This document shows positions 7 through 31,488 of a stretch of DNA of 64,000 nt, piece after piece (position 1 is the stretch's first letter; each line of letters opens with the position of its first letter). The notes under the pieces are model-generated. The model saw only the letters and a program-made list of their open reading frames with translations. It was not told where the DNA came from and did no database searches. Source of the stretch: Serendipita indica DSM 11827 (taxonomy: Eukaryota; Basidiomycota; Agaricomycetes; Sebacinales; Serendipitaceae); assembly GCA_910890315.1 (NCBI GenBank), contig CAJVGD010000001.1, positions 1-64,000 of the forward strand. The letters run 5' to 3'. The position numbers were made by a program, and so were the translations under genes.

Positions 7-3000
7 GCTATCAAAGATAACCAATATGCCTGGTCAGACCTCTTGCAGACCATTAGAGAACACACGAGGACGTTTCAACGACAACTAGATCAGCTAGGTA
101 TCAAAGATGTACTCGAAGAGTGCGAGGAATCTATCAAGGATCCACTTACAAACTATTCCATGTGTGTCCATCGTCGTCTGTTGGAAACAATCTCATCTCG
201 AACAGTACCCTCAAAGAGTTGATTGCCGAGATATGCGTTGATTCTGGTCTCGATGAATCCAAGTTTGACAAAGGTCTGACTTGGAAAGTACTGGTCCAGC
301 GCATCGGCACTACAAAGCTGGAAGCGGACACGATCAACGGATACAAGCAACGCCTGACGGACGCAAGGAACGAGTTGATGGTTCGTATTCCGCCTATAAG
401 AAGCGATCTAATACTGATCTTGTAATAGCGTGCTCTGATGCTCTATGTTACCGTCTCTGTTAGAGATACGGCGGAGCGGGACATATTGAAGGAACTCCAG
501 TCTAAACAACGCCAACGTCCGCAGGAATGCCAGCTGGGTACACGTGCGGAAATATTGGCCGAATGCGAAGCCTGGTCCAAAAACCCAGACGCTCCCAACG
601 TCCTGTGGATCAAAGCTGCACCAGGAGCGGGCAAGTCGACTATTGCGTCCACCTTGGTGACTAGGCTCGGTATCAAAACGACGCGTCTAGGATCAAGCTT
701 CTTCTTCAGTCGGCAGGAGACTGCGACTACGACTACTAGCACATTATGGCAAGGCATTGCGTATGACCTCGCGCGACATCCTACCATTCGCAAATACCTC
801 GCAGATAAAATGAAGAAGGAGAAGATTGACTTGACGACACCAAACGTGGACATTCTTTTCAAGCAATTGGTTGAAGTACCGTTGTCCAAAATCGGCAACC
901 TCTCACAGGACCAATCACCTGTGGTCATCATTGATGCATTGGACGAATGTGGTGGGCTGGCCGGCACACGATCGATCGAATTTCGACGACTTTTGCAAAC
1001 CCTCACTGCCTGGTCTCGTCTTCCAATCAGTTGCAAGTTGATCGTCACCAGTCGTGAGGAGGACGACATAGCGAGAATGTTCGCTCTCAACCCTCCATAT
1101 ACCATCGACCTACTCGCTACACAGGAGACAGTCAGCCAGTCCAAGCGAGACATTCAGGCATTCCTGACTGAGGAGCTTAGGAAGGTTGCTAGCAAGTATA
1201 CCATTCGATCCGTCGAATGGCCTCAAACAACGACTATCGAAGCCTTGGCAATCAAAGCTAATGGGCTATTCATCTGGGCCTCGACGGTGATAGAGTATCT
1301 CCGTGCTGGTAATCTGAGGAACTTTTGGAGGAGATTATAAAGGAAGACCGTGTTACAGGCATGGATTCACTCTACACTACAGTCCTCCAAACCGCGTTTC
1401 CCAATCCGAGGCCAACTCTGATGGAGGACATAAGAACAATTCTGGGCGGACTGGCTGTCGCCAAAGAGACTTTAGACATGAAAACGTTAACGAATCTCCT
1501 CGCAATGGATCCTTGGACGGTCGAACACATCTGTGGCGCACTACGACCGGTGCTGGAATTCGACGGAGGACTTCGGTTCCGCCACCAGTCATTTGTCGAC
1601 TTTTTTTTAAACCCAAATACGACATATTTGGTCCCTGGAATCACGACAGACACCTCCCACCGGATTCTTGCAGGCCAATGTCTACGGATAATGAAGGAGA
1701 GGCTACGATTCAATATCTGCGAGATCTCGTCATCCTATTTGCTCAATCAGGACATTTTGAGTGGACTGTCATCTATTGAGACCTACATTCCCCGCCATTT
1801 ACAGTATGCGTCGCGGTATTGGGTGGATCATTTGAATCTTCCAAGTGAGGAAACGATCACCCTCGTTCGATATGTTCTCAAGATTCACTTCCTTTCGTGG
1901 CTTGAGGTCGCAAGTTTATTTGGATGGACAGGGTACCGTCTATGCTTACGGCGTTGGCCGCATGGTTGAAGGTAAATCTAACACAGCCATAGACTGTTTG
2001 GTTGAAATTTCTTAGGAGAATGATATCGTCGAGTTGATATCGCAGCAGAGGACATGCGCCAGTTCACGGTGCACTTCATTGAGGTGATCTCACAAAGCGT
2101 GGCGGGCATCTACCTGTCGGCTTTACCATTATCGCCTGCGGTTTCGAAGGTGCATCAACAATACAGATATCAATACCCCAACACATTATTCGTCCACTCA
2201 GGTGGATATCAACGGTGGTCACCACTCCTTTTCATACTCCGCGGGCATACCGGGAGTGTGAATGCAGTTGCGTTCTCTCCAGATGGGCGGCGCGTTGTCT
2301 CTGGATCTGATGACCGAACGGTGCGTCTGTGGGATGTAGAAACGGGCGCACAGATTGGATCCCCGCTTGAAGGACATACAGATTATGTCCGCTCGGTTGC
2401 ATTCTCGCCAGACGGCCAGCGCATTGTCTCTGGATCTGATGACCGAACGGTGCGTCTGTGGGATGTAGAAACGGGCGCACAGATTGGATCCCCGCTTGAA
2501 GGACATACACATTATGTCCGCTCGGTTGCATTCTCGCCAGACGGCCAGCGCATTGTCTCTGGATCTGATGACCGAACGGTGCGTCTGTGGGATGTAGAAA
2601 CGGGCGCACAGATTGGATCCCCGCTTGAAGGACATACACATTATGTCCGCTCGGTTGCATTCTCGCCAGACGGCCAGCGCATTGTCTCTGGATCTGATGA
2701 CCGAACGGTGCGTCTGTGGGATGTAGAAACGGGCGCACAGATCGGATCCCCGCTTGAAGGACATACAGGCTCGGTTAATTCGGTTGCATTCTCGCCAGAC
2801 GGCCAGCGCATTGTCTCTGGATCTTCTGACCGAACGGTGCGTCTGTGGGATGTAGAAACGGGCGCACAGATTGGATCCCCGCTTGAAGGACATACAGGCT
2901 GGGTATGTCGGTTGCATTCTCGCCAGACGGCCAGCGCATTGTCTCTGGATCTGATGACCGAACGGTGCGTCTGTGGGATGTAGAAACGGGCGCACAGATT

Positions 3001-5246: not shown

Positions 5247-6251
5247 ATGGATATAATCCATAAACTACGCAAGAAAGTTAAGAAAACTCAAGATACGATC
5301 TTGGCGCCCACCACGCCCAGTCCATCTACGAGCCTGAATAGTCAAAGCTAGTACGAAACTGCCGCTGCTGAACAAGATGGACCGTGATCAATACAACACA
5401 GCCGTTGAAGATACAATCTGTGGACGATGAACAATCTCCGGGCTCGAACCATCCAATGCGACGATCCAAAATGGACAGATGGCTCGCTCGTGTAGCCCTT
5501 ATGCTCAGCTTGACAAAAAGTGTTGCAGATGCTGCCGATTTTGCACCATTGAAGGGTGCCTGCGAAGCTGTTATCACAATTTTGGATTCCGTTCAGGTAG
5601 GTTTCAGATCCTATGCACTACTTGCGTTCTAAGAACACTCTAGGCTGTCAAAGACAATCAATACGCACTCTACACTACGGTCCTCCAAACTGCGTTTCCA
5701 AATCCAAAGCCAACTCTCCTGGAGGATATGAGAACTATTCTGGGCGTACTTGCTGTCGCTAAAGAGACTCTAGACATGAAAACCTTAACGGATCTCCTCG
5801 TAATGGATCCTTGGACGGTCGAATACATATGCAGTGCGCTACGGCCGGTGCTGGAATTTGACGGGGGACTTCGGTTCCGCCACCAGTCCTTTGTGGACTT
5901 TTTTTAAATCCAAATGCGACATATTTGGTCCCTGAATCACGGACAGACAATTCCCACCGGATTCTTACAGACCAATGTCTACGGATCATGAAGGAGAGGC
6001 TACGATTCAATATCTGCGAGATCTCATCATCCTATTTACTCAATCGGGATGTTTTGAATGGACTCTCATCTATCGAGACGTACATTCCCCGCCATTTACA
6101 GTATGCGTCGCGCTACTGGGTGGATCATCTACATTACACTCTCCCAAGTGAGAAAACGCTGCGCCTCATTCAATATGTTTTCAAGCTTCACTTCCTTTCG
6201 TGGCTTGAAGTCGCAAGCTTCCTAGGTTTTGTGGACGAGGGGCCGCCTTAG
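5247..6251 (+). pseudogene. NLR copy 2: internally deleted NLR remnant
   Basis: Exon 1 begins with MDIIHKLRKKVKKTQDT, as in copy 3, but carries frameshifts and stops after about residue 30. After the first intron the reading jumps from NQYA straight to LYTTVLQTAFPNPKPTL, so the rest of the N-terminal region and the whole NACHT core are missing. The remainder covers the winged-helix/helical region after NACHT and ends at about 6240 in FVDE, before any WD40 exon. It is clearly dead. Its nearest relative is copy 3 on the opposite strand. Confidence 0.88.
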
Positions 6252-6942
6252 GCGTAAATGTACAAGAGACTCGGCCATATCAGTACGTTCAGACTACTGC
6301 CGTGGTATTGCTGTCGTGTAATGCATGGACCGACCTCAGGTTCAACGGCCACTCAAATCGTCGACACCCCTCCTCTTCAGGCACTCGGCTGAAGCTTCTC
6401 AAAGTAGCACATTCGCCATCAAACAAGATCGTCATTGGCAAGATTTATGAACAAAAGAGGATTCAACAAACAAGGGGAGCGGAGACCGACATTCTAGAGC
6501 CAAGGGGCTGTAGTCGGAGGGAAGGAGGGAGATTCGGCGGGATGGAGATGAAGAACGACGTCAACGTCAGGAAGGGGAGGGGGGAAATTGACGGAGCGGA
6601 CGGAGAAGGGTAGACGATTCCAGGAGCAGGGAGACGCATACGTAGGGGACAAGATCCGAGTCAAAATGGGAACAAAGAACAAAATGTTGATGATTCAAGG
6701 TGTGTGCTGCCGTTGAGAGTGCAAGTACGTCTCTCGCGGCTGCCCATGAGAGAAGGCCAAATGAGCGCACACGTGTGTATAGGTTGAACAAACCGTCCCT
6801 GATCGAAGAAGCGAGGACGTCAAGATTGTCTCAAAAACAAGGACGAGACGATGAGATCTATTTGGTTGTCAATGGACAATTTCTCCCAGGTAGAGCAGTA
6901 AACTCACGAGTTTGCTGTATGTAGCGCTGCAGGGTTCCTCCT
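6252..6942. other. Intergenic, no supported gene
   Basis: After the copy 2 breakpoint I see no conserved coding sequence. There is a purine-rich stretch (about 6510-6670) and only short, low-complexity open frames. Confidence 0.6.
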
Positions 6943-7053
6943 TTAGGCAACCACGCACTGCGATCCACCTCCGGTACCGTCGTCTTGGTTCGTAGGGATT
7001 TCGACCTCGGGAGTCTCGAAGAAGACGGCAAGGATGTTGTTAAGAGATTCCAT
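6943..7053 (-). CDS. Lipopeptide mating pheromone precursor (CaaX), copy A
   Basis: A 36-codon single-exon gene. The product starts MESLNNILAVFF, continues ETPEVEIPTNQDD, and ends GTGGGSQCVVA followed by TAA. CVVA is a classical CaaX box: in basidiomycete pheromone precursors the cysteine is farnesylated, the last three residues are removed and the end is carboxymethylated, and an N-terminal cut releases a short peptide that is exported and read by a STE3-type receptor. The protein matches the product at 10,259-10,369 at most positions and in length. A C/T-rich leader and a TATA-like octamer about 110 bp upstream resemble those of the second copy. The N-terminal cut probably lies in the NQDDGTGGGSQ region, but the exact site is inference. 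Confidence 0.88.
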   Translation of the reverse strand: MESLNNILAVFFETPEVEIPTNQDDGTGGGSQCVVA

Positions 7054-7160
7054 TTGAAGGGTGGAGTACGCTGGCGCAGTGAGGATAGTCGGGAGAGTCG
7101 ACAGAGGAGAGGAGAAGAGAGTGCGGTTTGGTGACGATTTCGACTCTGGAGGAGCGGGTG

Positions 7161-7168
7161 TTATATGC
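7161..7168 (-). promoter_or_regulatory. TATA-like element of pheromone gene A
   Basis: On the minus strand the octamer GCATATAA lies 108 bp before the start codon. The same octamer stands 117 bp before the second pheromone gene. Between it and the ATG is a pyrimidine-rich leader. Confidence 0.6.
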
Positions 7169-10134
7169 TGCGACGGTCTACAAGAAGTTCCCGATTAGGA
7201 TGTTGCGGAGACCTTGGTTCGCTCTTGGGAGAAGCTAGCCTCTGGCCTTGAGGCCAGTGATCCGTGATGCCTAGCTCGCGTGGTTGGGTGGATGTCAGTG
7301 CCCCATCAAATTACACATCCGTTAGCACCGCGACCCTAGCTCGCGTATGAACACCTGCCGTTCGAAGACAGCCATGACATAGTGATCCCGGAGCAGACTG
7401 GGTAAAGGTGACGAGCAGTTGACCGTCAATGTTGCCAGAGGATGATTGTGATGAATATCGTATAGTTTCCTGTGGTTAACTGTCCGCTACTTGCGCGACA
7501 AGAGCGTACGAGTTGCAATCCTTCCAAATCGGGCCAACGCGCTAGTGTCGTCAACCCGCCGGCTGGCGCACGAATTCCAGCGCCATAGTTTGAAGATTCA
7601 AGCTGGCTTGTCCCTGGGATACAAGGTCCTTGTTCTCGATTGACAAAGTTGGACGGCCGAGCTCAGGGTGACATGATGGAGTTCGGCGGTGGAAATGGAG
7701 CAAAAATAACGAAGCCAGCTTCATTTGATATTTCGATGTGATTTGACGTGCGTATAGTTTCACCGTCCGCACCTCAGATTCGCTGGTTCCACCTGGTATT
7801 TTTGATGCGATCAAAGCTGTTCATAGATAAACCTTTCCGTCTGTCCTTGTAGTCGTAAAACGCTTTCTTCCTCCGGGCAGACCCCACAGCGAACAAACGT
7901 TGGAGACGTCGATGGATTCAGCAAGGTTCGAGCAAACTACAGCACCGACAGAAAACAAAGGTCGCCAAGAAAGTCTAGACTTGAGAGCGCGTTCGACTAC
8001 AAGAGCTGTCGAACGCAGTTAGACTCCAAGTCGACACGGAGGATCAATTGCACCCAAAGAGAACCCCTAATTGGCTCTCGTGCGAAGCGAGTGGGTCTTG
8101 AAATAGCTCTCCGCGCGTTCTCATAAAGTTCTGGTTGTGTCCTTCGTAGTTTTGCTTTCGCCCCTGCTAAAAGGACGTGGACGACACGGTAATAGATCTG
8201 TCTGTGCGGACACCATTGGAAGAACATTTCCCTTGGCTATGGATCTATGTTGGAATTGTCTCGTCCAAGTTTAAACAGCCATTCTCCCAGATAGCGATTC
8301 TACGTGCCGCGTCGTCGTCGTCGTCGGTATCGGTAGATCTGTCACGTCGAATAGGATCCCAACGATTGACCAATGTACCAACGCGACTCGGTCAAAGGCC
8401 AGATAGTCACTGGGGATCCCTATTCGAGGCTGGCGCTGCGCGTAGGGTGCTCTCACAATCGGATTCTAGGATGAATGCTTGTTCTGATCTTTTGGGCAGA
8501 GATTTCGCGACGTCTGCAAAAGAAGCCATCTCCGAGTCGGTTGGGGAGGGGAAGGAAACGCGGAGAGAGCGAGATTTACTCGAGCGGTATATACGTCCAA
8601 CCCAGCGTCCATATGGCGGCGCGCGAGTTGACTCAGGTCCAGGGCCGAGGATGGACAGTCCCGAGGGTTCCGCGTTTGGTTCCGTGTGAGTACTTCTTTC
8701 GGTCCGACGATGATAGCTACGCCCTGACAATCGTTAAATTTCAGAAAAATTGTGTCGCAAGGTAAAAGGATATACCTTTACACAATAGGTATGAGTTTGG
8801 TCTAATATTTGGAGGGCATGGCTCTGGATCGCATCCCCGACGAGTAGCGGGATTGCCATTTTTGGGCATTCCCTTGTACCCTCCCGCCACTCACCTGCTC
8901 TGCGACTTGTATCGAGGATTCACTATTCCGACGTGTCGCCAGCAAATCTCCTCTCACGAATCAGCTGCCGAATGTACCCATATAAGAGCTATACCGACGC
9001 GCTTCGGGATCGTCCACCTCACACCAAAGCGACTCGGATGCTTACACCTTTTGCGCCCTGTTCTGCACGCATCTTGCGACCAAGATAAGACCTTCCAAAT
9101 CATTTACCCTCCACAACGCCCGTACTAGCCAAGCCCTTAGTCCAGACTAATGGTCAGAGGCAAACACGCCACAGGAGAACAAGCAGAACACTACTCGGTT
9201 CGCGGTTAATGTGAGGTGGACTGCAGTCCGCCTAACATAGGGTTGCTGGCAGGCATCTGCAAGCGCGAGGTGGCATCCACATGATCAATCAATACGACGA
9301 AGAACAAGACATTGATCATCTACAAGGCATAGTCCAACTATTTCCAGTGGTGGCTTGTTTCTAGTCTACTATTCCAAAGTCCGACACCGTTCATGGCAGG
9401 TCGGCAGCAGGCAAAGTCCGTCATAACGGCTCGATGGACTCTAAAGTTTCTCCGGCGAGCAACGGGAACCTCTCTCACAACAGTTGCCCAATTCGACCGG
9501 AGATGGCACAGCCACTCGTTCCGTCTATTGCTTGGCCTCTGAAAAATTTGCTCGACGAAAAGGCGATTGTATCATTGGAACACTTCTATCAAACTATGAC
9601 CCTATGCTTCGGTCGACTTCCGCGCACGTTGGCCTCTGTCACTTGGCCAACCTTGTTCTCGCCATGGCTCGATCAAAAACCTGCTCAAAGGCCCGCAATT
9701 AATTAGCTTGGTAGTTTCAAACAGCTGACAGATCATGATTGCCCGTATGCTCGGAATTGAGGGCTCGCGACCTCTGACAGACGCGTTGATAGACTGAGTA
9801 TTAACCCCGGCCGCCCCGTCATTTCCGCATTCGTCTCTTTGTTTTTTGCAACCTCGCCAGAATTTTGCCAAAAAGTTTTGAAATCATCACGGCTGCAAAA
9901 TCACGTTCTATAAACTCGAAAGTATATCTGGAGCCAGCGCAGTCCCAGAGCGGCGCTCGGGCTGGGGTACGAAATGCAAGGCGCGAGTACAAGGGTGACA
10001 CTATGATCGCTTTTGTGTGAGAGGCTACGTGCCCCTCGTACTTTATTCCATGCGAGCGGAACATTGGAATTCTCGGATCATCCGGTGCCTGCGCTCTTCC
10101 CAACTTGGAACTCGTTGTCGCCCGTTGACAAAGT
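7169..10134. other. Long spacer between the two pheromone genes, no gene seen
   Basis: About 3 kb between divergent pheromone genes. I looked for a STE3-like seven-helix receptor and for further CaaX peptides on both strands and found neither. Open frames here (for example 8177-8689 plus, 9434-9706 plus) have no recognisable family or convincing splice structure. A GTC/GTCG trinucleotide run occurs near 8307-8322. Confidence 0.55.
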
Positions 10135-10142
10135 GCATATAA
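10135..10142 (+). promoter_or_regulatory. TATA-like element of pheromone gene B
   Basis: GCATATAA followed by ACCC, 117 bp before the start codon at 10,259, with a C/T-rich leader in between. It matches the element of pheromone gene A. Confidence 0.6.
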
Positions 10143-10258
10143 ACCCACCCCTCGTCGACCCAACGTTTCCTCACCGAGTCTCTGCACTCTCTACAGCCCT
10201 CCCGCCGCACCTCTCTCTCCTGCGTACTACGCCAGCGCAAATCCCCACCAGCCGACCA

Positions 10259-10369
10259 ATGGAGTCCTTCACCAACACCCTCGAGCTCCTCTTTGCCAGT
10301 CCCGAAGTCGAAATCCCGACTGAACAGGATGGCGGCACTGGTGGTGGGAATCAATGCGTTGTCGCGTAG
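10259..10369 (+). CDS. Lipopeptide mating pheromone precursor (CaaX), copy B
   Basis: A 36-codon single-exon gene starting MESFTNTLELLF, continuing ASPEVEIPTEQDG, and ending GTGGGNQCVVA then TAG. It shares MES, PEVEIPT, QD, GTGGG and CVVA with copy A (6943-7053, minus). Family knowledge predicts farnesylation of the cysteine, removal of VVA and carboxymethylation; the mature peptide is probably a glycine-rich C-terminal part. The start is chosen because both copies begin MES at the same distance from the CaaX box and both follow a strong TATA-like, pyrimidine-rich leader. A and B differ in the putative mature part (EQDG against NQDD, N against S), as expected for peptides of different specificity. 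Confidence 0.9.
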   Translation: MESFTNTLELLFASPEVEIPTEQDGGTGGGNQCVVA

Positions 10370-11048
10370 ATTGAGGTTCCCCGGCCAGCTCCTTCGTGCA
10401 TTTGTCTCTGTGCGTTTCCGTCCGCTCCTCTCTCGAGACCTGTATTCTGACATTTGAACTCCTGCAGCGCATCAGATCCTAGAACTCGCACTCATCCGCT
10501 GCCCCTCGCACCTTGAAGGTGGCTAGCGTTTCAAACAAACCCCCGCCGTCCTCCTCGATGGCACCCTCGTGTCCGCGGCGGTCTACACACCGCTCTGACG
10601 ATTTGTTCCATTTAGGACGTGCACTCGGCCCCTCCACTTTGGACGGTCTCGAGTGTTTCACGCTCCTCACCTTTTACACAACTTGGTTCTTCTTGGTTCT
10701 TCTTGGTTCTACCCCTTTTGATATCGGACCAGCGCTAGACTTATACGGATTCCGTTAGAAATAGTACAGCCCCCCCTTTCGTTTCTCTCTCTCACCTCTA
10801 TCTTCCTCCATCTACACTCCCTCAACTCCCCTTCGACTTCATCCCCGCATCCGACGCCAGTCCTAAAACACCCCCTTGGTTCTCCACGTTTTTGGTCGAC
10901 TCTGTCGCGCGTCCATGTATCTTTTGTTACTCATCAGTGTCTTCATGAAACATTCGTGCAACTTGCGCATTACTAGGCCTGCTGACTGAGCGTCGATGAG
11001 TGAATACATTCAGGACCTACGACTACATGACGTGCGATAAGAGGGCGA
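10370..11048. other. Intergenic after pheromone gene B
   Basis: No supported gene. It contains a short tandem repeat of the decamer TTGGTTCTTC (about 2.8 copies, 10,683-10,710) and pyrimidine-rich tracts (10,760-10,830). Confidence 0.6.
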
Positions 11049-12261
11049 TCAACATAGGTTGTAATGGTGCTCATCGAGCGTCGAAAAGAGAAGACCTTCC
11101 TCGATGAGTCGCTGAATTGCCGCCCTGTCAGCCAAGAGTCAGCATTGCGGACAAAGTTGCCAAGGAATGGACATACGCAAAGGCGTCAGCGGGATCTTCT
11201 CCCGTCTTGCTCGTCTCTTCGTTTACCAGTGGCTTGACGGCTTTGATGATTTGACGGACATGGTACCCCTCACTTGTCGGCGGATTGTCTTTGATGAAAC
11301 GAATGATGCCCCGGTCGAGAACTGCGAGGTGGGCGTACATTGAATCGACCTCGTTCGTCTGTCGACTAGTGCCTTGCCGCGAGTAATCCGACGCTGAAGC
11401 CCCGCCCGTCATCGGGGCTCCTAGACTCGATCCAGAACCATTCTATACGAGGGTATGAGAAGAACGCGTCGATAGAAGACGATGGGCTAAAACGTACAGG
11501 AGGACCAAATTTGGCGAGCATGGCCATTGCAATCGCCTCGGTGTAATGAAAGTAGGCTTCCATGGGATCATCCAAGGCTCGAACGATGATCGCATTGATA
11601 TGTCTCCTTTCTTGAAATGTCCGTATGGTACCTGTAATCTTGACAAACTTGTTCAAAAGACTATCCGGTGTGTCAGCGGCACCTAGAGTAGATAATGTAG
11701 CCTACGGAGATTCATCCGACTCCATATCCATCGAGTCGGTGCCCTTCGAGTCGTTCCAGTGGCGTGCCTCAATCTCTGCTGAGCCATCGTTGATTTTGTA
11801 GACGTCCGAGGTGGTCTGGGATGTATGGTTTATGATCTGACCTACGATAGAAATCTGTATTGGGGAGTTTTGAGCCTGCACAAGGATCTCTATAGAAATT
11901 AACAGACCATGGAGAGCGTGACGCCGTCGAGCGTATAATCGGTCTCGGTATGTGATCCTTGCTCAGCTAAGAGTACTTGTCGAATGCTCAGCGGTCTCAG
12001 GGATTGGGTTTGTTTCTGTACGCGTTGAACACTGAGCCCTCGACGAGCCTGGCTCTACAACACGATGACCAACAACGACTCACGCGTTCAGTACCAGCTC
12101 CATGCGGAGATCCTTGACTAGCATATCCACCAGGCGAGTTGTTGCTGAGAAACCCGCCGCCGCCGCCTGAATAGTAAGGACCTTGGCTCCCAAAGCCTGC
12201 ACGTGGTCGTATACGATATGAGCGATCGATGTAGAGTGATATAAGGTGTATGCATACTCAT
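11049..12261 (-). CDS. RFA2: Replication protein A 32-kDa subunit
   Basis: Middle subunit of the heterotrimeric single-stranded DNA binding protein RPA, needed in replication, repair and recombination. Seven exons can be joined in frame to 299 residues: 12,261-12,258, 12,196-12,084, 12,015-11,908, 11,875-11,706, 11,660-11,498, 11,442-11,177 and 11,124-11,049. The N-terminus is Gly/Ser/Tyr-rich (MSFGSQGPYYSGGGGGF), as in RPA32. The OB fold follows, with LSIRQVL, ISIVGQI and the family signature KITGTIRTFQERRHINA, then a C-terminal winged-helix domain ending QRLIEEGLLFSTLDEHHYNL. The first coding exon holds only ATG and one more base; every intron has GT and AG ends. It is divergent from the NCE101-like gene. 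Confidence 0.92.
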
Positions 12262-21151: not shown

Positions 21152-24100
21152 CTAATCATCTGTTCCTATGACATCTTCGGGAATCGTCCCACCGTCCTTC
21201 ACTCGCGTCCACTCTTCTCCGTGCACAAATTGGGTTGTATCGACACTCAACCTCTGGACCCGGCCTATGATACGAACTCCTGGTCGCTCAAGCCCGTCAC
21301 GAAACTGAGGCGGGATCCAACAGAGTCGTTGACCATTTGGACCCAACAACCATCCATCATTGCCCACCCGACAGTAACGATTTGGGATTGGATGCGTCTA
21401 GACAAATTAGTATATTACCAAATGTTGCATCGATAATACGCACAGATCCTTCTGTTGTGATGTTCCATATACGTATCGTCGTGTCGACTGATCCAGAAAT
21501 AATATGTCGGCCATCCTGAGAAAATACCACCGAGTGGACCCAAGCCGTATGTCCTTCGAGCGGTAATCCAATCTGAATCCCTGTTTCTACGTCCCATAGA
21601 CGCACTGTCTGGTCATAGGATCCGGAAACAAGGCGCCGACCATCTGGCGAGAAAGCGACTGAGGTAACGAAACGCGCATGTCCTCCCAGCGGGGATCCAA
21701 TTTGCGCCCCCGTCTCGACATCCCACAGGCGTATTGTCCTGTCATCAGATCCAGAAATAACGGTTTGACCGTCAGGCGAAAATGCGACCAACCGAACCCA
21801 ATTTTTATGTCCTTCGAGTGGTGACCCTATTTGTGCGCCTGTATCTACATCCCACAGGCGCACCGTGGTATCAGAGGATCCAGAAACAACGCGATGGCCG
21901 TCTGGCGAGAAAGCGACCGAATTAACGGAACGCTTGTGACCTTGGAGCGGGGGTCCAATCTGTATCCCCGTCTCTAAATTCCACAGCCGCACTGTTTGAT
22001 CATCGGATCCAGAGACAATTTGGCTGCCGTCGGGCGAGAATGCGACAGACATAACCCAACTGGTATGGCCTCTCAGCGGGGGTCCAATCTGTGCCTCCGT
22101 CTCTATATCCCAAAGCCTTACCGTTCTGTCGTAGGATCCAGAAGCAATACGGCGGCTATCTGGCGAGAATGTGACCGACGTAACCCGATCTATGTGGCCT
22201 TTTAATGGTGACCCAATCTGTGCCCCCGTCTCCACATCCCATAGACGCACTGTTTGATCGCTAGATCCAGAAACAATGCGGTCGCTATCTCGTGAGAGAG
22301 CAACCGAGTTAACCCAACTCGTATGGCCTTGGAGCGGCGACATAATCTGCGTGTCTGACTCTACATCCCACAGCCGCGCTGTTGCGTCATCAGATCCAGA
22401 GACAATCTGGCGACCATCTGGCGAGAATGCGACCGAGTTGATACAGTTCGTGTGGCCTTCAAGTGGCGATCCAATCTGCGCGCCCGTCTTTATATCCCAC
22501 AGATGAACCGTTCCTTCTTCGCATCCAGACACGACCAAGCGGCCGTCTGGGGAGAATGCGACCGACGTGACGCTACTTGTGTGGCCTTCGAGCGGGGATC
22601 CAATCTGTGCACCCATTTCTACATTCCACAAACGCACCGTTTGATCACTAGATCCAGAAACGATATGGTGGCCCTCTGGCTCGAATGCGAGCGCCATAAC
22701 CCAGCCTGTGTGCCCTCCAAATGCCAATCCAATTTGCGCGCCTGTCTCCCCATCCCACAGACGCATCGTTCTATCATCGGATCCGGAGGCGATTCGGTGA
22801 CCAGCCGGCGCAAATGCGACTGAGTTGACGGAGCCCACGTGGCCCTCGAGTGGACCTCCAATCTGTGCACCCGTTTCTGCATTCCATAGACGTATTGTCT
22901 TGTCACGAGATCCAGAAACAACGCGTTGGCCGTCTGGCGAGAATGCGACCGATATAACCCAATCTGCATGTCCTTCGAGTGGCATTCCAATTTGCGCACC
23001 TGTATCTACATCCCATAGACGTATTGTTCTGTCATAGGATCCGGAGACGATGCTGCGACCATCTGGCGAGAATGCGACTGAGCAGACCATACCCGCATGT
23101 CCCCTGAGCGGCAATCCAACCTGTGCGCCTGTGTCTACATCCCACAGACGCAGCGTCTCATCATCAGATCCAGAGACGACTCGGTGGCCAGCCGGCGAAA
23201 ATGCGACGGCACCCACAGCACTAGTATGGCCGCGAAGCATGAAACGGAGTGGTGACCACCGTTGATATCCACCTGCATGAATGAGAAGTGTACTTGGATA
23301 CTGACGGTGGTACCTCTGGCGCACCTCGGATCGTGGAGGAGACAACGGTAAAGCCGAGAGGTAGATACCGGGGACGCTTTGCGAGATCACCTCGATAAAG
23401 TGTACGGTGAACTGGCGCATGTCCTCTGCAAGTGATACCAGATCGAGGCTACCATTCACCTAAAAGAAATCAATCAACCAGTCTTTGGTCGCATTAAAAG
23501 TTACCTTCAGCCACGCGCACGAGGCAATAAGCATAGAGGGGACCTCGTCCACAAAACTTAGGAAGCTTGCGACTTCAAGCCACGAAAGGAAGTGAAGCTT
23601 GAAAACATATTGAATGAGGCGCAGCGTTTTCTCACTTGGGAGAGTGTAATGTAGATGATCCGCCCAGTAGCGCGACGCATACTGTAAATGGCGGGGAATG
23701 TACGTCTCGATAGATGAGAGTCCATTCAAAACATCCCGATTGAGTAAATAGGATGATGAGATCTCGCAGATATTGAATCGTAGCCTCTCCTTCATGATCC
23801 GTAGACATTGGTCTGCAAGAATCCGGTGGGAGGTGTCTGTCGATTCCAGGGACCATTTGGATTTAAAAAAAGTCCACAAAGGACTGGTCCCGTCAAATTC
23901 CAGCACCGGCCGTAGCGCACTGCATATGTATTCGACCGTCCAAGGATCCATTACGAGGAGATCCGTTAAGGTTTTCATGTCTAGAGTCTCTTTAGCGACA
24001 GCAAGTACGCCCAGAATAGTTCTTATATCCTCCAGGAGAGTTGGCTTTGGATTTGGAAACGCAGTTTGGAGGACCGTAGTGTAGAGTGCGTTCATGCCTG

Positions 24101-25844
24101 TAACATGATCCTCCTTTAAGATCTCCTCTAAAAGTTCCCTCGGATTACCAGCACGGAGATACTCTATCACCGTCGAGGCCCAGATAAATAGCCCATTGGC
24201 CTTGATCGCCAAGGCTTCGATAGTCGTTGTTTGAGGCCATTCAATGGATCCTATGGTGAACCTTGTGGCAATCTTCCTAAGCTCCTCAGTCAGGAGTGCC
24301 TGAATGTCTCGTTTGGACTGGCTGACTGTCTCCTGTGTAGCGAGCAGGTCGATAGTATGCGGAGGGTTGAGAGCAAACATCCTCGCTATTTCGTCCTCCT
24401 CGCGACTGGTTACGATCAACTTACAGTTGGTTGGAAGACGAGACCAGGCGGCGAGGGTTTGCAGAAGTTGTCGAAATTCAGTTGATCGCGCGCCGACCAG
24501 TCCACCACACTCGTCCAATGCATCAATGATGATCAGAGGTGATTGTTCCTGCGAGAGGTTGCCGATTTTGGACAACGGCATTTCAATCAATTGCTGAAAA
24601 AGAATGTCGATATTCGGTGTCGTCAAGTCAATCTCCTCGTTCCTCATCTTATCCGCGAGGTATTTGCGAATGGTAGGATGTCGCGCAAGGTCGTACGCAA
24701 TCCCCTGCCACAGTGCGCTAGCAGTCGTAGTTGCGGTCTCTTGTCGACGGAAGAAGAAGCTTGATCCTAGACGCGTCTTTTTGATGCCGAGTGTAGTCAC
24801 CAAGGTAGAGGCAATGGTCGACTTGCCCGCTCCTGGTGCAGCTTTGATCCAGAGGACGTTCGGAGAGTCTGGGTTTTTGGACCAGGCTTCGCATTCAGCC
24901 AATATTTCTGCACGTGTACCCGACTGGCATTCCTGCGGACGTTGGCGTTGTTTGGATTGGAGTTCCTTCAATATGTCCCTCTCCGCCGTAGCTCTAACAG
25001 ACACGGTGACATAGAGCATCAGAGCATGCTGGAACAGAATAAGCTTTGGAGCATGTCTTCCACGCGGAATACGAACCATCAACTCGTTCCTTGCGTCCGT
25101 TAGGCGTTGCCTGTATCCGTTGATCGTGTCCGCCTCCAGCTTTGTAGTGCCTATGCGCTGAACCAGTAGTTTCCAAGTGAGACCTTTGTCAAACTCGGAT
25201 TCATCGAGCCCAGAATCTACGCATATCTCGGCCATCAACTCTTTGAGGGTACTATTCGAGGTGAGACTGTGTCCAATGGACGATGATGGACACACATGGA
25301 GTAGTTTGTAAGTGGATCCTTGATAGATTCCTCGCACTCTTCGAGTACATCTTTGATACCTAGCTGATCTAGTTGTCGTTGAAACGTCCTCGTGTGCTCT
25401 TTAATGGTCTGCAGGAGCTCTGACCAGGCGTATTGATTGTCTTTGATAGCCTAGAGTGTTCTTAGAACGCATGTAGTGCATCGGATCTGAAACCTACCTG
25501 AACGGAATCCAAAATTGTGATAACAGCTTCGCAGGCACCCTTCAATGGTGCAAAATCGGCAGCATCTGCAACACTTTTGTCAAGCTGAGCATAAGAGCTA
25601 CACGAGCGAGCCATCTGTCCATTTTGGATCGTCGCATTGGATGGTTCGAGCCCGGAGATTGTTCATCGTCCACAGATTGTATCTTCAACGGCTGTGTTGT
25701 AGTGATCACAGGTCCATCTTGTTCAGCAGCAGACGGTTCCGTACTAGCTTTGACTAGGCTCGTAGATGGACTGGGCGTGGTGGGCGCCAAGATCGTATCT
25801 TGAGTTTTCTTAACTTTCTTGCGTAGTTTATGGATTATATCCAT
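21152..25844 (-). CDS. NLR copy 3: NACHT-WD40 protein with diverged 14-blade repeat; one exon-1 frameshift
   Basis: Best-preserved family member. Exons by inspection: 25,844-25,498, 25,450-25,296, 25,251-23,505, 23,459 to about 21,420, and a C-terminal exon ending at 21,152. Exon 1 encodes a basic start (MDIIHKLRKKVKKTQDT) and the SKMDRWLARVALMLSL helix. NACHT has AAPGAGKSTIAS, IIDALDECGG and LIVTSREED. The 700-codon WD40 exon is fully open with 14 distinct blades. In exon 1 near 25,577 it has four A where copies 2 and 4 have five, which shifts the frame; this is either a true lesion or a homopolymer error. Relative to the others, a deletion around FDG...SPLWTFFK removes the GLRFRHQSF segment in frame. 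The last splice site is unresolved. By family analogy it would be an intracellular receptor oligomerising on ligand. Confidence 0.8.
21430..23245 (-). repeat. 14 diverged WD40 blades of NLR copy 3
   Basis: Fourteen consecutive 43-residue blades, each with GH near the start, SVAFSPDG and an RLWD-type end, but differing from one another at many positions (for example REGH/QGHK starts, SGSYDRT, SGCEEGT, SGSVDTT). This contrasts with the nearly identical units in copies 1 and 4. The count equals two propellers of seven. Confidence 0.88.
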
Positions 25845-26289: not shown

Positions 26290-29200
26290 TCAGATATCTT
26301 CAGGTATCTTTCCACCTTCCTTCACCCGTGTCCATTCTTCTCCGTGCACAAATTGAGTTGTATCGACACCCAGCCTCTGGACTTGACCCATGATGCCAAC
26401 TCCTGGCCGCTCGATCCCAGCACGAAACGGAGGCGGTACCCAAAAGAGTCGCTGGCTAGATGGACCAAATAACCATCCATCGTCGCCCACCCGGCAGTAC
26501 TGATTTAGAAGTGAATGTACCTAGACAAATCAGAATGTCACAAATTTACAGATCGATAGGACGCACACTATCTTCTGTGGCGCTGGTATTCGTTATGCGT
26601 ATAGTTCGGTCTTCAGATCCGGAAGCAATGTGCTGGCGATCTGGCGAGAATGCGGCTGAGTAAACCGGAGTCGTGTGTCCTTCAAGCGGGGATCCAATCT
26701 GTGCGCCCGTTTCTACATCCCACAGACGCACCGTTCGGTCATCAGATCCAGAGACAATGCGCTGGCCGTCTGGCGAGAATGCAACCGACATAACCCAGCC
26801 TGTATGTCCTTCAAGCGGGGATCCAATCTGTGCGCCCGTTTCTACATCCCACAGACGCACCGTTCGGTCATCAGATCCAGAGACAATGCGCTGGCCGTCT
26901 GGCGAGAATGCAACCGAGCGGACATAATCTGTATGTCCTTCAAGCGGGGATCCAATCTGTGCGCCCGTTTCTACATCCCACAGACGCACCGTTCGGTCAT
27001 CAGATCCAGAGACAATGCGCTGGCCGTCTGGCGAGAATGCAACCGAGCGGACATAATGTGTATGTCCTTCAAGCGGGGATCCAATCTGTGCGCCCGTTTC
27101 TACATCCCACAGACGCACCGTTCGGTCAAAAGATCCAGAGACAATGCGCTGGCCGTCTGGCGAGAATGCAACCGAGCGGACATAATGTGTATGTCCTTCA
27201 AGCGGGGATCCAATCTGTGCGCCCGTTTCTACATCCCACAGACGCACCGTTCGGTCATCAGATCCAGAGACAATGCGCTGGCCGTCTGGCGAGAATGCAA
27301 CCGACCAGACATAATCTGTATGTCCTTCAAGCGGGGATCCAATCTGTGCGCCCGTTTCTACATCCCACAGACGCACCGTTCGGTCTTCAGATCCAGAGAC
27401 AATGCGCTGGCCGTCTGGCGAGAATGCAACCGACATAATAATCTGTATGTCCTTCAAGCGGGGATCCAATCTGTGCGCCCGTTTCTACATCCCACAGACG
27501 CACCGTTCGGTCAGAAGATCCAGAGACAATGCGCTGGCCGTCTGGCGAGAATGCAACCGACATAACCAAGCCTGTATGTCCTTCAAGCGGGGATCCAATC
27601 TGTGCGCCCGTTTCTACATCCCACAGACGCACCGTTCGGTCAGAAGATCCAGAGACAATGCGCTGGCCGTCTGGCGAGAATGCAACCGACATAACCCAGC
27701 CTGTATGTCCTTCAAGCGGGGATCCAATCTGTGCGCCCGTTTCTACATCCCACAGACGCACCGTTCGGTCAGAAGATCCAGAGACAATGCGCTGGCCGTC
27801 TGGCGAGAATGCAACCGAGCGGACATAATCTGTATGTCCTTCAAGCGGGGATCCAATCTGTGCGCCCGTTTCTACATCCCACAGACGCACCGTTCGGTCT
27901 TCAGATCCAGAGACAATGCGCTGGCCGTCTGGCGAGAATGCAACCGAGCGGACATAATCTGTATGTCCTTCAAGCGGGGATCCAATCTGTGCGCCCGTTT
28001 CTACATCCCACAGACGCACCGTTCGGTCATCAGATCCAGAGACAATGCGCTGGCCGTCTGGCGAGAATGCAACCGAGCGGACATAATGTGTATGTCCTTC
28101 AAGCGGGGATCCAATCTGTGCGCCCGTTTCTACATCCCACAGACGCACCGTTCGGTCAAAAGATCCAGAGACAATGCGCTGGCCGTCTGGCGAGAATGCA
28201 ACCGAGCGGACATAATGTGTATGTCCTTCAAGCGGGGATCCAATCTGTGCGCCCGTTTCTACATCCCACAGACGCACCGTTCGGTCATCAGATCCAGAGA
28301 CAATGCGCTGGCCGTCTGGCGAGAATGCAACCGAGCGGACATAATGTGTATGTCCTTCAAGCGGGGATCCAATCTGTGCGCCCGTTTCTACATCCCACAG
28401 ACGCACCGTTCGGTCAAAAGATCCAGAGACAATGCGCTGGCCGTCTGGCGAGAATGCAACCGAGCGGACATAATGTGTATGTCCTTCAAGCGGGGATCCA
28501 ATCTGTGCGCCCGTTTCTACATCCCACAGACGCACCGTTCGGTCATCAGATCCAGAGACAATGCGCTGGCCGTCTGGCGAGAATGACCGATCTGGAAGCG
28601 GATCCGAATGCAAAATCCAGATCAATTGGTCATAACCGTTCGGTCATCAGATCCAGAGATTCAAGTCTGGCGAGATGGCGAGACATCATATGTCCTTCAA
28701 GCGGGGATCCAATCTGTGCGCCCGTTTCTACATCCCACAGACGCACCGTTCGGTCAGAAGATCCAGAGACAACGCGCCGCCCATCTGGAGAGAACGCAAC
28801 TGCATTCACACTCCCGGTATGCCCGCGGAGTATGAAAAGGAGTGGTGACCACCGTTGATATCCACCTGAGTGGACGAACAATGTGTTGGGGTATTGATAT
28901 CTGTATTGTTGATGCACCTTCGAAACCGCAGGCGATAATGGTAAAGCCGACAGGTAGATGCCCGCCACGCTTTGTGAGATCACCTCAATGAAGTGCACCG
29001 TGAACTGGCGCATGTCCTCTGCGAGCGATATCAACTCGACAATATCATTCTCCTAAGAAATTTCAACCAAACAGTCTATGGCTGTGTTAGATTTACCTTC
29101 AACCATGCGGCCAACGCCGTAAGCATAGACGGTACCCTGTCCACAATCCGTAATAAACTTGCGACCTCAAGCCACGAAAGGAAGTGAATCTTGAGAACAT

Positions 29201-31488
29201 ATCGAACGAGGGTGATCGTTTCCTCACTTGGAAGATTCAAATGATCCACCCAATACCGCGACGCATACTGTAAATGGCGGGGAATGTAGGTCTCAATAGA
29301 TGAAAGTCCACTCAAAATGTCCTGATTGAGCAAATAGGATGACGAGATCTCGCAGATATTGAATCGTAGCCCCTCCTTCATGATCCGTAGACATTGGCCT
29401 GCAAGAATCCGGTGGGAGGTGTCTGTCGTGATTCCAGGGACCAAATATGTCATATTTGGGTTTAAAAAAAAGTCGACAAATGACTGGTGGCGGAACCGAA
29501 GTCCTCCGTCGAATTCCAGCACCGGTCGTAGTGCGCCACAGATGTGTTCGACCGTCCAAGGATCCATTGCGAGGAGATTCGTTAACGTTTTCATGTCTAA
29601 AGTCTCTTTGGCGACAGCCAATCCGCCCAGAATTGTTCTTATGTCCTCCATCAGAGTTGGCCTCGGATTGGGAAACGCGGTTTGGAGGACTGTAGTGTAG
29701 AGTGAATCCATGCCTGTAACACGGTCTTCCTTTATAATCTCCTCCAAAAGTTCCCTCGGATTACCAGCACGGAGATACTCTATCACCGTCGAGGCCCAGA
29801 TGAATAGCCCATTAGCTTTGATTGCCAAGGCTTCGATAGTCGTTGTTTGAGGCCATTCGACGGATCGAATGGTATACTTGCTAGCAACCTTCCTAAGCTC
29901 CTCAGTCAGGAATGCCTGAATGTCTCGCTTGGACTGGCTGACTGTCTCCTGTGTAGCGAGTAGGTCGATGGTATGTGGAGGGTTGAGAGCGAACATCCTC
30001 GCTATATCGTCCTCCTCACGACTGGTCACGATCAACTTGCAACTGGTTGGAAGACGAGACCAGGCAGTGAGGGTTTGCAAAAGTTGCCGAAATTCCGTCG
30101 ATCGCGTGCCGACCAGTCCACCACATTCGTCCAATGCATCAATGATGACCACAGGTAATTGGTCCTGTGAAAGGTTGCCGATTTTGGACAACGGCTTTTC
30201 AACCAACTGCTGAAAAAGAATGTCGATATTCGGTGTCGTCAAGTCAATCTCCTCGTTCCTCATCTTATCCGCGAGGTATTTGCGAATGGTAGGATGTCGC
30301 GCAAGGTCATACGCAATCCCCTGCCACAGTGCGCTAGCAGTTGTAGTTGCGGTCTCTTGTCGACGGAAGAAGAAGCTCGATCCTAGACGCGTCTTTTTGA
30401 TGCCGAGTGTAGTCACCAAGGTGGACGCAATGGTCGATTTGCCCGCTCCTGGTGCAGCTTTGATCCAGAGGACGTTCGGAGCGTCTGGGTTTTTGGACCA
30501 GGCTTCGCATTCAGCCAATATTTCCGCACGTGTACCCGGCTGGCATTCCTGCGGACGTTGTCGTTGTTTAGATTGGAGTTCCTTCAATATGTCCCTCTCC
30601 GCCGTAGCTCTAACAGACACGGTAACATAGAGAATCAGAGCATGCTGGAACAGAATAAGCTTTGGGCCGCATCTTCCAAGTGGAATACGAACCATCAACT
30701 CGTCCCTTGCGTCCGTCAGGCGTTGCTTGTATCCATTGATCGTGTCCGCTTCCAGCTTTGTAGTACCGATACGTTGGACCAGTATTTTCCAAGTCAGACC
30801 CTTATCAAACTCGGATTCATCGAGACCAGAATCGACGCATATCTCGGCTATCAACTCTTTGAGGGTACTATTCGAGATGAGATTGTGTCCAACAGACGAC
30901 GATGGACACACATGGAGTAGTTTGTGAGTGGATCCTTGATAGATTCCTCGCACTCTTCGAGTACATTTTTGATACCTAGCTGATCTAGTTGTCTTTGAAA
31001 CGTCCTCGTGTGTTCTCTAATGGTCTGCAAGAGGTCTGACCAGGCATATTGGTTATCTTTGATAGCCTAGAGTATTCTTAGAGTACATATAGTGATCAAG
31101 CTTTGAAATCTACCTGAATGGAATCCAGAATTGTCACAACAGCTTCGCAGGCTCCTTTCAATGGTGCAAACTCGGCAGCATCCGCAATGCTTTTTGTCAA
31201 GCTGAGCATGAGAGCTACACGAGCAAGCCATCTGTCCATTTTGGATCGTCGTATCTGTTCATGATCCGGGCTCTGCGGAGATTGTTGATCGGTCGCAGAT
31301 TGTGTCGTCGATAATGCTGATGTGGTGACTACGGATTGTTGACCAGATGGACCTTGTTCAACAACAGGCGGTGCGACGATCCTCGTGCTGGCTTGGATCA
31401 GACTCGCAGATGCACCAGACGTAGTGGGGGTCAAGGTGGTAACCTGAGTCTTCTTAGATTTTTTGCGTATTTTACGGAATATATCCAT
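26290..31488 (-). pseudogene. NLR copy 4: intact N-terminal/NACHT half, WD40 exon broken
   Basis: Exons: 31,488-31,114 (MDIFRKIRKKSKKTQ start), 31,066-30,912, 30,867-29,097, 29,052 to about 26,546, and a C-terminal exon ending at 26,290. The first three exons splice in frame to 767 codons and contain SKMDRWLARVALMLSL, the P-loop AAPGAGKSTIAS, VVIIDALDECGG and the helical region ending AAWLK. The WD40 exon is open for its first blade, then is scrambled at about 28,586-28,695 and shifts frame again at about 27,435. A truncated NACHT protein with one blade could still be made. The C-terminal exon (GDDGWLFGPSSQRLFW) is nearly identical to that of copy 1. It lies about 230 bp after the asparaginase gene in the same direction. 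Confidence 0.85.
26555..28836 (-). repeat. About 17-unit 129-bp WD40 repeat of NLR copy 4
   Basis: About 17 units of 129 bp, nearly identical. The variable codons after GHT read DY, HY, GW, GL, GS or TP, followed at the second next position by R, W or M; the residue before DRTVRL is D, F, S or E. Blocks such as HY-F, HY-D alternate, suggesting amplification of two-blade units. The count differs from the 14 of copies 1 and 3. Confidence 0.85.

Follow-up and report, generated by a model that had tools for sequence, protein, structure and literature searches.

The window, that is the first 64,000 nucleotides of contig CAJVGD010000001.1 of Serendipita indica DSM 11827 (C1:1-64000), contains a divergent pair of 36-codon ORFs that are probably (at roughly 0.77 by our estimate) real genes for short farnesylated peptides of the kind known from Agaricomycetes as non-mating-type pheromone-like precursors. 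That they are pheromone-type CaaX precursor genes is well supported by the family to which they belong, the constraint on their sequences, their gene anatomy and published precedent. This kind of gene is already known and ordinary; what is new, and useful, is a newly listed family in the Sebacinales. The two genes and the elements proposed around them are:

6943..7053, minus strand: coding sequence of precursor 1, 36 codons, ending in CVVA and a stop codon
10259..10369, plus strand: coding sequence of precursor 2, 36 codons, ending in CVVA and a stop codon
7161..7166, minus strand: putative TATA-like box of precursor 1, ATATAA, a consensus match 113 bp upstream of the ATG
10137..10143, plus strand: putative TATA-like box of precursor 2, ATATAAA, a consensus match 122 bp upstream of the ATG
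6858..6907, minus strand: predicted 3' UTR intron of precursor 1, 50 nt, with consensus donor, branch and acceptor
10410..10467, plus strand: predicted 3' UTR intron of precursor 2, 58 nt, with consensus donor, branch and acceptor

The original prediction proposed two 36-codon genes on opposite strands, both ending in a CaaX box, and ORFs that begin with ATG and end in CVVA-stop lie exactly there, head to head, with their ATGs 3.2 kb apart. It also called them near-identical paralogues; the relationship is clear, since precursor 2 as a protein query against the genome finds the pair as sole matches at E <= 10 (E = 8.7e-11), but at 25 of 36 identical residues (69%) they are not near-identical. 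BLASTN between the two loci yields a single aligned stretch of 111 bp, equal to the coding region, with 69% identity. When the flanks are forced into alignment, identity is 51% over the 120 bp upstream, 41% over the 200 bp downstream and 47% far upstream; CGCCAGCG near the ATG is common to both genes. The 34 nucleotide differences are distributed as 5, 7 and 22 over codon positions 1, 2 and 3 (chi-square p = 0.0005), and pN is 0.17 against a pS of 0.79, with dS saturated; differences placed mostly at third positions are the mark of a protein under constraint. The likely mature peptides differ, as had been anticipated, at two of the last nine residues up to the cysteine (D/G and S/N); the tails before the CaaX box read GTGGGSQC and GTGGGNQC, with 4 and 5 glycines in the 12 residues ending at the cysteine. 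Neither precursor matches any Pfam family.

A repeat or transposon origin was rejected, as the 3.65 kb around the pair have no genome match other than that of the two genes to each other, in a search that leaves out simple repeats and very frequent words. Neither Rfam, run on 5500-11500 at gathering thresholds, nor a bacterial-code tRNA scan of the window returned anything. Elsewhere in the window, a Pfam scan of 20 of the listed ORFs located three NACHT/NPHP3_N ORFs (429-1337, plus strand; 23463-25400 and 29079-31016, both minus strand) that are 86-91% alike when aligned, two of them with WD40 arrays alongside (21360-23459 and 26549-28643, minus strand); judged by sequence, these are NLR-like tandem genes.

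The pair belongs to a larger family in its own genome (24.7 Mb in 55 contigs). A DNA pattern for CVVA followed by a stop codon occurs 35 times genome-wide, against 18 occurrences of the reversed control pattern, and when all 35 were read, 13 proved to be intact single-exon precursors of the same type, 35-43 aa long and of common build (majority pattern MEFF..L..F....T.E.....D....G.G....CVVA). Together with one member that has a predicted intron, the family numbers 14, a lower bound for a search that covered CVVA ends:

C1:6943 and C1:10259: the window pair
C5:10993, C5:14452 and C5:18553: intact single-exon precursors
C7:11874: intact single-exon precursor
C13:901321 and C13:903566: intact single-exon precursors
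C16:471107, C16:472736 and C16:475315: intact single-exon precursors
C40:687065 and C40:2151037: intact single-exon precursors
C1:265263-265455, minus strand: predicted two-exon precursor, family-like, 43 aa with a CVVA end if the predicted 61-nt intron is spliced
C5:452: outside the count of 14, a frame-broken copy at the beginning of contig C5, where the surrounding stretch is 89% identical to that of the C7 copy

Another match, C40:226429, belongs to the end of a Ras-superfamily GTPase gene; among the remaining 19, five end in TGG and so lack a stop, and the rest are unlike the family by eye. For two matches, C40:367013 and C44:1319162, the reading took in only some 190 bp of upstream sequence; the latter allows a doubtful one-intron model that is unlike the family, and 2% of random window positions yield some model. 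Pfam gives one weak Mfa1 match (E 0.01) among the 13 single-exon members and none for C13:901321, which lies beside receptor genes; a Pfam pheromone match was therefore not treated as defining.

The family is scattered and in part clustered, with three precursors within 4.2 kb at C16:471107-475329. The frame-broken copy lies at the edge of C5, in a 2-kb stretch that C5:1-1966 shares at 89% identity with C7 around 11874; the two stretches are perhaps alleles of the heterokaryon. S. indica is described as heterokaryotic, with two HD loci that are allelic, and sexual reproduction was not detected in it (PMC3192844). Nine of the 13 single-exon genes lie less than 20 kb from a contig end (two on C1, three on C5, one on C7 and three on C16). 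A subtelomeric placement is not claimed, because TTAGGG and CCCTAA are both absent from the terminal 300 bp of C5, C7 and C16 and from the terminal 2 kb of C1, because C5 and C7 share the 2-kb stretch, and because the genes are clustered.

Gene anatomy lends further weight to the family. A TATA-like box between -165 and -90 is present in seven of the 11 members with 600 bp upstream and absent from the other four, compared with 2.9% of random 81-mers from the window; the pattern was widened after its first version, TATAWA, had missed precursor 1 (the narrow form finds six of 11). Six of the 11 genes for which 300 bp of downstream sequence are available have an intron-like stretch in the 3' UTR, which in the pair begins 36 and 41 nt past the stop codons; such a stretch occurs in 3.2% of random 180-mers, and mononucleotide shuffles give an expectation of 0.38. 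As the intron pattern was written after the window pair had been seen, the fair count leaves the pair out and stands at four of the nine remaining genes (binomial p = 1e-4). A looser pattern selects the same six genes (4.7% of random stretches, 0.53 expected). The six genes with the pattern all belong to the nine that have no receptor next to them; the other three of these nine fail it, as do both C13 genes. The controls for box and intron are random window DNA that was not chosen to resemble gene ends, and family members, being related, do not count as independent trials. ACAAAG elements, which we take to be the pheromone response element of Ustilago, occur inconsistently upstream of some members.

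The closest published counterparts are the non-mating-type precursors of Agaricus, Coprinopsis and Laccaria, which share with the pair a short ORF, a CaaX end, a glycine-rich tail and a scattered location away from receptor genes (PMC8305134). Agaricus bisporus possesses four scattered pheromone-like precursor genes with G-rich tails, at least three of them expressed and with a 3' UTR intron that was seen in transcripts, whereas that of the pair is predicted by consensus; the start of the pair, methionine, an acidic residue, serine and F/L, is comparable to the published MDS/AF motif (PMC8305134). The glycine-rich tails, the scattering and the predicted 3' UTR intron thus match the published non-mating-type precursors, and this makes a pheromone-type precursor well supported. 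The resemblance is incomplete in three respects. At 36 aa the pair is shorter than the 44-54 aa of the non-mating-type precursors (PMC8305134) and the usual 40-100 aa (PMC5100862, PMC8686365), PMC8686365 also giving generally more than 20. The tails share the glycine run of GGGSGNGAYC (Coprinopsis) and GGGSGNNAYC (Laccaria) without their AYC, in a comparison with the printed consensus rather than an alignment; only three of the four Agaricus tails resemble these peptides (PMC8305134), so the consensus tail is not strictly defining. Since the tails of the pair are off that consensus, we term the genes 'of that kind' and not 'orthologous'. Finally, the rule of a charged dipeptide 10-15 residues before the C-terminus (PMC5100862, PMC8305134) is followed weakly or not at all, unlike in the non-mating-type precursors: precursor 1 has DD at residues 24-25, and in precursor 2 the charges of E-Q-D are not adjacent.

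The original prediction called the CaaX box typical of basidiomycete mating pheromones; for a mating role of this pair the positions of the receptors give no support. An exon-wise search for STE3 (PF02076), whose counts are lower bounds, gave the following matches:

C1:274037 and C1:568191
C13:903985 and C13:910050
C36:71658
C40:232169
C43:169670

Because C36:62000-81999 and C43:160000-170345 are one locus assembled twice (99.4% identity over 10 kb), these amount to six distinct STE3 genes; three further matches on C16 are weak (E 0.006-0.12). Three of the 14 family members lie within 9 kb of STE3 genes. Two of them, on C13, sit 0.3 and 2.5 kb from the first C13 STE3 match, and as two STE3 genes here adjoin two CVVA precursors (901-911 kb), this is likely to be a P/R locus. 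The third, C1:265263, is 8.6 kb from C1:274037, and C1 265-275 kb is possibly a second pheromone-receptor locus on the contig of the window. The window pair and nine other members have no STE3 match nearby: the exon-wise search found none in the window, on C5 or on C7. On C16, at least 76 kb separate the precursors from the weak matches, and on C40 at least 450 kb separate them from C40:232169. Seven homeodomain (PF00046) matches fall on C2 (two), C11, C12, C13 (745688), C19 and C40, and none on C1.

The pair could still consist of mating-type pheromones proper that act on receptors of the C13 locus, of the C1 265-275 kb locus or of alleles of these, and are placed away from them. The shared CVVA box would fit, being the same as in the precursors beside STE3 genes, as would the two STE3 genes on the same contig, 264 and 558 kb from the pair, one of them with a predicted precursor at 8.6 kb. 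The MAT-B (P/R) precursors, for which we take phb of Rhizopogon (PMC5473757) and the three receptor-linked genes of this genome, share with the pair a CaaX end and an acidic residue after the initial methionine, and in Rhizopogon about half were missed by annotation. Genes of the MAT-B type lie 0.3-8.6 kb from STE3 matches, however, whereas the pair is not located in a receptor-pheromone cassette, its nearest STE3 match (C1:274037) being 264 kb off; the C13 genes lack the 3' UTR intron pattern and the predicted intron of C1:265263 is inside the coding sequence, whereas those of the pair are in the 3' UTR. The pair locus is present once in the assembly and without a divergent second form. This agrees with a non-mating role but could also result from collapse of the assembly. 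The linked tails end in IYC, LWC and LYC and those of the pair in SQC and NQC, but this is no clean split, since six of the 11 non-linked precursors also have an aromatic residue among the last 12 and C13:901321, with two glycines, equals three non-linked ones. We regard this reading as unlikely; 'pheromone-type' stands, carried by family, constraint, anatomy and precedent, and 'mating' is not supported, with the nearest receptor so distant and receptor-linked CVVA precursors elsewhere.

Less probable again, and in our view quite improbable, is that the pair makes short prenylated peptides with a non-signalling role in the cell or represents relics of a formerly secreted family. The missing charged cleavage pair of precursor 2 and the frame-broken copy at the start of C5 would agree with this; that the proteins are constrained and the gene anatomy is shared speaks against relics. 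It is very unlikely indeed that the ORFs are chance frames or the CaaX ends of longer prenylated proteins, for example Ras-superfamily GTPases, as four CVVA, CVVV, CVVT and CSVA ORFs near the C40 STE3 gene turned out to be, since the window ORFs begin with ATG at the family start position, the frames upstream hold nothing GTPase-like by eye and BLASTN similarity stops at the ORF.

Those four ORFs (C40:226429-229868) had been candidates for a second pheromone cluster and were rejected because the frames immediately before them have Pfam Ras matches (E 6e-10 to 7e-12); four Ras-superfamily GTPase genes, each with a CaaX end, stand there in tandem, 2-6 kb away from a STE3 match. They came from a CaaX scan of 16 rows, which also held four family members (two on C13 and the window pair) and eight ORFs dropped as unlike the family by eye: C36:64863, C1:564378, C13:915533, window 54142 and four at C40:235096-238801. 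The last four are repeated, near-identical short MTSEWL/MTAEWL ORFs (MTSEWLSQRLASLCIPQSNCLVI type) beside a STE3 match, and C37:78137 has a similar tail.

Returning to the pheromone-like precursors, such short genes were expected to escape automatic annotation, and the protein searches fit this. A protein search with a family profile gave five proteins at E <= 10 among 14 candidates, all from S. indica DSM 11827: PIIN_07385 (C7), PIIN_09274, PIIN_09273 and PIIN_09272 (C16) and PIIN_00191 (C13:901321). Four are letter-identical to full-length family members; the fifth, PIIN_09272, is a shortened version of another (25 residues against a 38-residue ORF in the genome) and probably carries a wrong start. 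PIIN_00191, near two STE3 genes, is named Pheromone in UniRef. These matches place the window in S. indica (Piriformospora indica) or something extremely near to it, as does a phosphate transporter exon of this genome that agrees with PDB entry 7sp5, the P. indica transporter, in 248 of 253 residues and differs from it at the exon edges. The proposed search for known precursors thus recovered relatives within S. indica, and none outside it in the same two protein-set searches. Neither of these, one with a lengthened query and one with the family profile, returned the window pair; as the former needs three shared 5-residue words and the latter uses at most 100 words from 13 sequences, absence from the protein set is likely, not proved. 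In Rhizopogon, pipelines miss about half of such genes (PMC5473757). The literature searched held no report on these genes as S. indica or Serendipita pheromones, receptors or mating-type genes and none on the five PIIN locus tags; the portions of PMC8686365 at hand contain nothing on S. indica pheromones, and the word 'pheromone' is absent from the main text of the genome paper (PMC3192844).

Fungal a-factor-type pheromones follow an established chain of farnesylation, trimming, methylation, N-terminal clipping, export and STE3 binding. By analogy, each gene of the pair would be transcribed from its TATA-like box into a short mRNA, with an intron in the 3' UTR, and yield a 36-aa precursor; the cysteine of CVVA would be farnesylated, VVA removed and the cysteine carboxymethylated, and the acidic N-terminal part would be clipped near residues 22-25. 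The product may be a glycine-rich lipopeptide of about 9-13 residues that is exported and acts on a STE3-type receptor encoded elsewhere. Domain matches for ICMT and prenyltransferase are present in the genome and are permissive only, as eukaryotes need both for other proteins too. According to PMC8305134, it is unknown whether mushroom STE3-like receptors of the non-mating kind bind any pheromone.

The pair adds genes that are apparently missing from public annotation. A bolder proposal, which we advance tentatively and consider on the whole unlikely, is that S. indica maintains under constraint a scattered repertoire of roughly a dozen glycine-rich, farnesylated peptides with functions other than mate choice, possibly in self-recognition, in hyphal fusion, on non-mating STE3 receptors or even towards the plant root. 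S. indica, a root endophyte of an early-branching order, can be cultivated, and with no fewer than 14 precursors and six distinct STE3 genes it would offer a tractable system in which to test ligand-receptor pairs.
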